The translations under genes were made by a program, and so were the position numbers. A stretch of 64,000 nt of DNA from Nitratireductor luteus (GTDB lineage Bacteria; Pseudomonadota; Alphaproteobacteria; Rhizobiales; Rhizobiaceae). This document shows positions 16,371 to 18,200 of this stretch, in pieces (the first letter of the stretch is position 1; each line of letters begins with the position of its first letter). The notes beneath the pieces are model-generated. The model was not told the DNA's origin, ran no database searches, and was given only the letters and a program-made list of their open reading frames with translations. The stretch is taken from the NCBI RefSeq assembly GCF_026162365.1, contig NZ_JAOANW010000002.1, forward strand, positions 1 through 64,000, in the 5' to 3' direction.

Positions 16371-16637
16371 TTAGTGCAGGCTCACCGGCTGGAGATCGTT
16401 TTGGAAGGCGCCGGCCAGCGCCGCATCGCGGGCGTCGGCAAGGAGGATGGGCTGGCCGTTGGCGGCGAAAAGCGCCCACAGCTTGGTGCCGGGAGCCAGC
16501 TCCGGCATTTCGGGCATTCCGGGGAACTTGCCGCGAAGGTCGGCGGCGTCCATCTCGCGCATATAGGCCACAGCGCCCTCGCCCAAATGAGCCAATTGCT
16601 GTTGCGTAACGGTAATCTTGTGTTCGTTCTCAGTCAT
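16371..16637 (-). CDS. DUF1150 family protein
   Basis: 88 residues with the DUF1150 pattern: QQLAHLGEGAVAYMREM (about residues 13-29), then LAPGTKLWALFAANGQPI (about 48-65). The ATG at 16637 follows GGAGGCTGAA. It lies 82 bp after hsp20 on the same strand, an arrangement repeated in Rhizobiales. The family has no proven function; the context points to heat-shock co-expression. The end is marked by the 18-bp hairpin. Confidence 0.9.
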   Translation of the reverse strand: MTENEHKITVTQQQLAHLGEGAVAYMREMDAADLRGKFPGMPEMPELAPGTKLWALFAANGQPILLADARDAALAGAFQNDLQPVSLH

Positions 16638-16719: not shown

Positions 16720-17145
16720 TCAATCCTGCACCGAAATGTCTATCTTTCTGACAAGGCGCTCGGGCTCCGGCCGGTCGAGGTCGATCGAGAGCAGCCCGTT
16801 TTTCAGGGCGGCGCCGATCACATGCATGCCGTCGGCGAGCAGGAAAACGCGCTGGAACTGGCGCGAGGCGATGCCGCGGTGCAGATATTCCCGTTCGCTT
16901 CCATCGTCCTGCCGACCGCGCACGATCAGCTGGTTTTCCTCGGTGGTCACGTCCAGGTCCTGTTCGGCGAAACCGGCTACGGCCAAAGTGATTCGCAGGC
17001 GTTCGCTGCCGCTTTCGTTGCCGCGAATGCGTTCGATATTGTAGGGCGGATAGCTGTCGCCCGATTTCGCAACACGTTCGAGCGTTTTTTCCATGCTATC
17101 GAACCCCAAAAGCAGCGGATTCGAGAAAGGCGTCATGCGCGTCAT
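16720..17145 (-). CDS. Small heat-shock protein, Hsp20 family
   Basis: 141-residue alpha-crystallin-type chaperone that holds unfolding proteins. The N-terminus MTRMTPFSNPLLLGFDSMEKTL is typical of rhizobial class A small Hsps. The alpha-crystallin domain (about 33-130) includes YPPYNIERI, LAVAGFAEQDLDV and ENQLIVRGRQ. The start at 17145 is preferred to the in-frame ATG at 17160, because the latter lies inside the sequence that forms the ribosome-site hairpin. A sigma-32-type promoter and a ROSE-like leader lie upstream. The DUF1150 gene is co-transcribed. Confidence 0.95.
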   Translation of the reverse strand: MTRMTPFSNPLLLGFDSMEKTLERVAKSGDSYPPYNIERIRGNESGSERLRITLAVAGFAEQDLDVTTEENQLIVRGRQDDGSEREYLHRGIASRQFQRVFLLADGMHVIGAALKNGLLSIDLDRPEPERLVRKIDISVQD

Positions 17146-17204
17146 ATTTCCTGTCCTCATAGAGCGACGTGGACAAGCAAAAACCCTGATGGCGTTTCTG
17201 CTTG
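17146..17204 (-). promoter_or_regulatory. ROSE-like RNA thermometer in the hsp20 leader
   Basis: The 59-nt leader folds into two hairpins by eye. Hairpin one spans 17174-17204, pairing CAAGCA with TGCTTG and AAAC with GTTT around a short loop. Hairpin two spans 17153-17168, pairing GTC-G-CTC with GAGGAC. The bulged G inside a TCGCT segment lies opposite the AGGA ribosome site, as in ROSE elements. A second AGGA pairs with an upstream TCC. The layout fits heat-released translation. Confidence 0.8.
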
Positions 17205-17212
17205 CACCCTTG

Positions 17213-17241
17213 ATATGGTCCGCCGCAACGCAGAGTTCAAG
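17213..17241 (-). promoter_or_regulatory. Sigma-32 (RpoH)-type promoter of hsp20
   Basis: CTTGAA (minus strand, 17241-17236) and CCATAT (17218-17213) are separated by exactly 17 bp, matching the heat-shock sigma pattern CTTGA-N17-CYATNT. The predicted transcript start near 17205 falls right at the first base of the ROSE-like hairpin. Confidence 0.8.
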
Positions 17242-17258
17242 AACATTGGAGATTGCCC

Positions 17259-18200
17259 ATGGCGCCGGCGCGCAAGATCATAATCGACACGGATCCCGGC
17301 CAGGACGACGCGCTGGCGATCCTGTTGGCGCTGGCAAGCCCGGAGCTGGACGTGCTGGGAATCACGGCCGTGGCCGGCAATGTGCCGCTGCCCCTCACGG
17401 AGAAGAACGCGCTCAAGATATGCGAGCTCGCCGGCAAGCTGGAAACGCCCGTTTTCGCCGGCGCGAGCCGCCCGCTGGTCCGTGATCTCGTGACCGCCGA
17501 GCATGTGCACGGGAAGACCGGCCTCGACGGCCCGGACCTGCCCGAGCCCACAATGGCGCTGAGGGAGCAGCATGCGGTCGACTTCATCGTCGAGACGCTG
17601 ATGAGCCACGACGAGGGCCAGGTCACGCTGTGCCCGCTCGGCCCGCTCACCAACATAGCCCTCGCCCTGGTGCGCGAGCCGAAGATCGCCCACAGGATCA
17701 AGGAGATCGTGCTGATGGGCGGTGGCTTTTTCGAGGGTGGCAACATCACACCGACGGCCGAGTTCAACATCTATGTCGACCCGCACGCGGCCGACGTCGT
17801 GTTCCGCTCGGGCGCGCCGATCGTCATGATGCCGCTCGACGTGACGCACAAGGCCATGACGACGGCCAGGCGGGTCGCGGCCTTTCGCGACCTTGGAACC
17901 CGCGTGGGCGCGGCGGTCGCCGAAATGCTGGAGTTCTACGAGCGCTTCGACGAGGAGAAATACGGCTCCGACGGCGGCCCCCTGCACGATCCCTGCGTCA
18001 TCGCCTGGCTGTTGCAGCCGGAGCTTTTCAAGGGCCGGCAGTGCAATGTCGTGATCGAGACCATGTCGGAGCTGACCATGGGCATGACCGTCGTCGATTG
18101 GTGGGGCGTGACCGAGCGCCGGAAGAACGCACATGTGATGCGCGACATCGACCATGAGGGGTTCTTCGCACTGCTGACGGAGCGGCTGGGGCGGCTTTAA
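17259..18200 (+). CDS. Inosine-uridine preferring nucleoside hydrolase
   Basis: 313 residues. It hydrolyses the N-glycosidic bond of ribonucleosides to base plus ribose. The N-terminal calcium-binding motif IIIDTDPGQDDALA (about residues 7-20) is the hallmark, supported by LCPLGPLTNIA and EIVLMGGGF in the middle and HDPCVIAWLL near residue 245. The ATG at 17259 is preferred to the TTG two codons before it. It is divergent from hsp20. Ribokinase lies about 700 bp further on, so released ribose could be phosphorylated locally. Confidence 0.94.
   Translation: MAPARKIIIDTDPGQDDALAILLALASPELDVLGITAVAGNVPLPLTEKNALKICELAGKLETPVFAGASRPLVRDLVTAEHVHGKTGLDGPDLPEPTMALREQHAVDFIVETLMSHDEGQVTLCPLGPLTNIALALVREPKIAHRIKEIVLMGGGFFEGGNITPTAEFNIYVDPHAADVVFRSGAPIVMMPLDVTHKAMTTARRVAAFRDLGTRVGAAVAEMLEFYERFDEEKYGSDGGPLHDPCVIAWLLQPELFKGRQCNVVIETMSELTMGMTVVDWWGVTERRKNAHVMRDIDHEGFFALLTERLGRL

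Follow-up and report, generated by a model that had tools for sequence, protein, structure and literature searches.

The minus strand of the 64,000-nucleotide stretch of Nitratireductor luteus DNA considered here (the window) encodes a small heat-shock protein, hsp20 (16720-17145, with its ATG at 17145), whose 141-residue product matches PF00011 with 63.5 bits and is assigned to class A (IbpA/HspH-like) from its likeness to Escherichia coli IbpA. A DUF1150 gene (16371-16637; PF06620, 93.9 bits), presumed to be the second cistron, follows on the same strand. Divergently, a nucleoside hydrolase gene (PF01156) begins on the plus strand with its ATG at 17259, and the leader of interest occupies the minus strand between this gene and hsp20, where the coordinates and letters given in an earlier note are correct. 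The Shine-Dalgarno sequence, GAGGA (17154-17158, minus strand), stands 8 nt from the hsp20 start codon.

Relatives of this locus were gathered from a scan of one genome per species across 84,980 species, which yielded 404 candidate stretches encoding an Hsp20 relative, the best 80 of which were kept. Since these belong mostly to Mesorhizobium and Chelativorans, the set was widened to the GTDB family, where 147 of 151 genomes bear an Hsp20 match at E<=1e-20. The resulting family set is comprised of 130 orthologues, namely 30 with loci (including the window) and the next 100 among the matches listed, with weaker ones omitted; the start codon, where placed, is ATG in 126 of the 130.

The leader is preceded by a -35-like CTTGAA (17236-17241) and a -10-like CCATAT (17213-17218) on the minus strand, each assigned from sequence and conservation and separated by a 17-nt spacer (17241-17213). 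The RpoH consensus of alphaproteobacteria combines CTTGAA, a 17-nt spacer and a CCATAT-type -10, and the window displays each of these parts. The pattern CTTGAA-N17-CCATAT occurs once in the window and in none of 100 shuffles, and CTTGA[AT]-N17-[CA]CATAT is kept in all 81 close leaders (the window and 80 relatives), which confirms the earlier description of this pattern before a two-hairpin leader. Within the GTDB family the exactly spaced form, CTTG-N19-CCATAT, is found in 103 of 130 upstream regions and in none of 20 shuffled sets, and CCATAT, where present (104 leaders), ends a median of 66 nt from the hsp20 ATG; at the level of the class the exactly spaced form is less common (6 of 63 upstreams). 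Judged solely from the position of the -10, the hsp20 transcript would start near 17205, and the leader following the promoter spans about 60 nt of the minus strand. The nucleoside hydrolase ATG at 17259 lies only 17 bp from the hsp20 -35 at 17241, so the promoter of that gene is most likely located in or behind the hsp20 leader, and an antisense overlap of the two transcripts is possible.

The minimum-energy fold contains both hairpins, hairpin I at 17204-17174 and the core of hairpin II at 17168-17153, and the region 17209-17125 folds better than all 200 of its shuffles (z -2.53). Hairpin I is a long and stable stem of the minus strand in which G17193 is bulged, within C[G]CC..GGG. The core of hairpin II, the proposed thermosensor, reads GTCGCTCTATGAGGAC at 17168-17153 on the minus strand and takes the form GUC[G]CUC-UAU-GAGGAC, in which GUC[G]CUC pairs with GAGGAC, itself containing the ribosome site GAGGA, and leaves a single G bulged at 17165. 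Together with a lower UCC/GGA extension, hairpin II reaches from 17173 to 17149 in the fold.

A looser pattern, GTCGCT-N4-10-AGGAC, has a single match in the window but is also met in 18 of 100 shuffles and is therefore, taken alone, not beyond chance; the observation is confirmed as real because the promoter and the hairpin core are conserved among relatives. GTCGCT-N3-9-AGGA is present in 81/81 leaders (the window and the best 80 of the 404 relatives; 59 distinct leaders). A first motif for the family, T[CT]GCT-N2-14-AGGA within the last 60 nt, was found in 113 of the 130 orthologues and was revised because its misses had AGGG or a longer distance. The revised motif, GT[CT]GCT-N2-16-AGG[AG][CT] within 70 nt, is found in 121 of the 130, the window among them, and is absent from the other nine, while sets of dinucleotide shuffles gave a mean of 0.25 and at most 2 (20 sets). 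All but two of the 121 core matches end within 15 nt of the start codon, the spacing from Shine-Dalgarno to start being similar in 119 of these leaders; the match of L235 ends at 29 nt and that of L241, at 53 nt, is chance-like. With the bulge position left free in the motif, the base is G in 121 of the 130 and the remaining nine show no match at all, so that the bulged G claimed earlier for the TCGCT segment opposite AGGA is borne out both by G17165 in the fold and by these free-base matches. Among 1302 sites pairing a Shine-Dalgarno sequence with an ATG (the window and L006-L085, both strands), the strict motif has 82 matches, every one in an hsp20 leader; the looser core T[CT]GCT..AGG[AG] is found at 109, hence at some outside hsp20 leaders.

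The pair that closes the loop of hairpin II varies among C-G (53), U-A (49), U-G (16) and G-C (1), with two leaders unpaired. It is of the Watson-Crick type in 103 of 121 leaders versus 58 in shuffles, none of 5000 of which reach 103, a comparison from which relatedness is not removed; as the leaders share descent, these conservation counts do not represent independent events. That the lower stem of this hairpin is a general feature was considered and rejected, as it displays no covariation over the 121 leaders (p 0.48). An RNAalifold consensus of 38 close leaders (L034 being misaligned) shows double changes at five of its 16 pairs, all outside hairpin II, which is nearly invariant in this set.

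An upstream ATG (17158-17160, minus strand) lies within hairpin II, where it straddles the loop, and shares the frame of the ATG at 17145. It is probably not the hsp20 start; by eye, the other 37 aligned close leaders have no ATG at this place. The earlier caution that it could mislead annotation is a fair one, and extends to other genomes in a different form: 43 of the 80 relatives (L006-L085; for example L012, L024 and L025) possess an in-frame upstream ATG, always in ATGTCGCTC at the foot of hairpin II and never at the place seen in the window, and automatic calls of the hsp20 start may err in these relatives.

The arms of hairpin I covary. In the 112 leaders with a match to the sequence anchor, cognate arms pair at -7.7 kcal/mol versus about -4.0 kcal/mol for swapped arms (difference -3.7, p 5e-19). 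When the part before the core is folded, a single-base bulge on the 5' side, one to four pairs below the loop, appears in 94 of 121 family leaders (7.5 in shuffles) and is a G in 91 of the 94; in the class set it appears in 20 of 43 leaders (3.4 in shuffles) and is always G. The form Y-G-C-Y..R-G-G is shared by 117 of the 121 family leaders (23 in shuffles) and 37 of the 43 class leaders (10.6 in shuffles). The role of hairpin I in ROSE elements is called not fully understood in PMC3669281, and the conserved bulged G offers a precise mutation target for this question. A limited literature search yielded no mention of the bulge in hairpin I, a slender basis for considering it unreported.

The leader extends well beyond the close relatives. 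A covariance model built on the 38 close leaders (R1) matched 29 of 297 genomes of the order at E<=0.1, and 26 of these matches stand directly before an hsp20 of this kind, eight in the same family (including the window) and 18 outside it; the three weakest (E 0.025-0.088) do not precede such a gene. DUF1150 adjoins hsp20 in 22 of the 26 hsp20-linked matches, and one of the other four lies at a contig end. R1 spans 12 coding positions, so its matches are partly scored on these and are not wholly independent of the gene. These positions were kept because a second, leader-only model was given up after MAFFT misplaced gaps around the loops (44 of 77 picked leaders). On 90 chosen loci R1 yields 83 matches at E<=0.05, including one (the second of L162) on the wrong strand. 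At the level of the class, the Hsp20 protein is found in 179 of 289 genomes at E<=1e-25; the 69 upstream regions taken from these include 29 new loci (three from the same order) and 40 chosen ones, with five unplaceable. The looser core is present in 44 of the 64 placed upstreams versus 1.45 in shuffles and absent from 20, and 21 of the 29 longer loci have DUF1150 nearby. A short leader of the ROSE type thus accompanies this hsp20, often with DUF1150 after it, in many alphaproteobacterial families.

Predicted melting is modest. The folding model gives the ribosome site a probability of being free of 2.0% at 25 °C and of 6.6% at 42 °C. On the same model this value climbs from 0.0000 to 0.0042 for the canonical ROSE element of this genome, and from 0.110 to 0.123 for the proven E. 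coli ibpA thermometer, with a 5' end chosen by the analyst. Because this proven leader hardly changes on it, the folding model is a poor judge, and nearest-neighbour melting was dropped as proof of function, the E. coli leader being nearly flat though the canonical ROSE changes. The hairpin II core alone is computed at -4.9 kcal/mol at 25 °C and -2.45 kcal/mol at 42 °C; without the bulged G these values become -9.0 and -6.1 kcal/mol.

Published data touch one orthologue. M. loti MAFF303099 holds four class A matches, one on the plus strand of C1 (the orthologue), two on the minus strand of C1 and one on the minus strand of C3. Under the locus-tag convention, mlr presumably denotes the plus strand, so that among mll2387, mll3033, mlr3192 and mll9627 only mlr3192 would bear a plus-strand tag; from the strand, order and replicon of the four genes, the M. 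loti orthologue, 82% identical and with the same promoter and leader as the window, is therefore almost certainly mlr3192. All four of these class A genes are said to carry a ROSE element in PMC3989490, the only paper found in a literature search on mll3033 and mlr3192. The same source describes the mlr3192 mRNA as unaltered by heat in a microarray (PMC3989490), a result that counts against a strong heat-driven rise in transcription of this gene under the conditions used. For S. meliloti, two ROSE-like elements are named in PMC2873474, before ibpA and SMb21295, and a literature search combining DUF1150 with hsp20 found no paper.

Taken together, these features make it very probable that the leader is a short RNA thermometer of the ROSE-like kind, built of two hairpins and expressed from a heat-shock promoter of the RpoH type, and the pairing of such a promoter with a ROSE-like leader, as envisaged in the earlier note, is supported by comparison across the GTDB family, with the hairpin core reaching beyond it. 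The ROSE-like identity of the leader appears well supported by sequence comparison, and the RNA most likely keeps the ribosome site out of reach until the temperature of the cell rises. Transcription would begin near 17205 from the RpoH-type promoter; at growth temperature hairpin II would block the ribosome, and warming would melt hairpin II while leaving hairpin I closed, allowing translation of hsp20 and probably of DUF1150 too. The bulged G may be what leaves hairpin II weak enough for this melting. We infer that hsp20-DUF1150 is controlled at both transcription and translation.

An unlikely alternative is that the leader serves mainly as the target of self-feedback by Hsp20, in the manner of E. 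coli IbpA repressing its own mRNA, with heat acting by drawing the chaperone to unfolded proteins, although thermometer and feedback may coexist. E. coli IbpA is described as binding its own 5' UTR; R93 is essential and Y34, R97 and K98 matter, position 34 having to be aromatic and positions 97 and 98 basic, and the possibility that alphaproteobacteria share this self-suppression is raised by the authors themselves (PMC10474464). Counterparts of R93 and R97, together with a [YFW]PPYN motif, occur in 80/80 close orthologues, R93 and R97 in 30/30 family proteins (including the window and overlapping in part with the 80), and R93 in 28 of 29 class proteins; the conserved hairpin I motif, which hiding the ribosome site does not explain, is also in keeping with feedback. 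The Hsp20 of the window retains equivalents of R93, of the aromatic 34 and of the basic 97, but has V at 98, and this position is never basic in the 80, 30 and 29 orthologues, whereas E. coli requires a basic residue there. Feedback also leaves the bulged-G pairing over the ribosome site unexplained, and a narrow literature search found no binding data for alphaproteobacteria. A leader with two inputs, in which hairpin II would sense temperature and hairpin I, with its bulged G in Y[G]CC..GGG, would be recognised, most likely by the encoded Hsp20, is held to be quite unlikely; it would let the mRNA read heat and free chaperone together, and the chaperone-feedback role given to hairpin I is a guess.

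The strong conservation of the promoter within the GTDB family and the modest predicted melting would also suit a simpler arrangement, in which hairpin II just lowers translation at every temperature and heat acts solely on transcription, by way of the RpoH-type promoter. This is improbable, as the bulged G found in all 121 core-bearing leaders is needless for a mere attenuator, temperature does control the proven short leaders of this ROSE-like build (PMC3669281), and no rise of the M. loti mRNA was seen in the one microarray noted above (PMC3989490). That the hairpins arose by chance, the conservation being due to promoter DNA or to the divergent gene, draws on the shuffle frequency of the hairpin II pattern (18 of 100 for the window) and on the nearby start of the nucleoside hydrolase at 17259. 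It is already disfavoured and seems extremely improbable, for the hairpin I arms and the loop-closing pair of hairpin II covary and all 82 strict matches at the 1302 sites are hsp20 leaders.

The mark of ROSE-like elements is U(U/C)GCU imperfectly paired with the Shine-Dalgarno sequence in the 3'-proximal hairpin, with a bulged G (PMC3669281 and PMC11342760). The window leader presents UCGCU with AGGA at 17167-17154, has G17165 bulged opposite the Shine-Dalgarno sequence in the minimum-energy fold, and precedes a small heat-shock gene (PF00011), a setting that is usual for such elements but not exclusive to them. By score it is a member of neither Rfam family of ROSE elements considered here. 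The earlier note had proposed a search with the ROSE covariance models, and for the window it is negative: the Rfam scan gave no ROSE match at the gathering score and none at E<=10 in 16900-17400, RF00435 having no match in the window and no ROSE match being found in 10 relatives. As RF00435 detects a canonical ROSE element (81 bits) before another hsp20 pair of the same genome, the negative result concerns the subtype. RF02523 (ROSE_3; cut-off 43 bits) likewise has no match in the window and none over its cut-off in 151 family genomes, with orthologue L177, among 20 loci scanned, at 42.0 bits. Over the 151 genomes it marks 17 places in 16 genomes at E<=0.1; five of the six best (E<0.005) lie on an hsp20 start and the other 12 places elsewhere. 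The Rfam scan was therefore dropped as a decisive test, since the models are insensitive to this subtype in relatives too. The leader is a probable further case of the known ROSE-like switch, missed by standard RNA-family models, and, as these models overlook most such leaders, the number of small heat-shock genes under ROSE control is probably underestimated.

The canonical element stands on contig C24 before a two-gene small heat-shock operon (L005/L002), upstream of which a long reading frame appears transposase-like by eye. A third class A small heat-shock gene of the same genome (L003, contig C45; the MRHVDFSP gene) is preceded by a leader that looks by eye like a two-hairpin ROSE-like RNA, with GAAACGCC..GGGTTTC and TGTTGCTCAAATGGAGGAC; this leader was found by neither Rfam nor R1.

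With canonical RF00435 the window leader shares UYGCU/AGGA with a bulged G, and a hairpin I bearing [G]CC..GG, a feature that recurs in the RF02523 consensus and when the E. coli ibpA leader is folded; a middle hairpin and a far longer thermosensor stem enclosing the AUG, both lacking in the window, set the RF00435 consensus apart. The RF02523 consensus resembles the window leader in its two-hairpin build and in the bulged-G build of its hairpin I, and, judged by this consensus, the family seems to model the leader type of Pseudomonas ibpA. Those Pseudomonas leaders, of 61-62 nt, fold into two hairpins; hairpin II melts, whereas hairpin I remains closed (PMC3669281). The window leader differs from them in its alphaproteobacterial host, in the DUF1150 gene after hsp20, in having no RF02523 match, and in that its thermometer role is putative. 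They are the closest tested thermometers to it, sharing with it a length of about 60 nt, a hairpin I that is stable and a hairpin II that is weak, U(U/C)GCU facing the ribosome site and a class A small heat-shock gene downstream.
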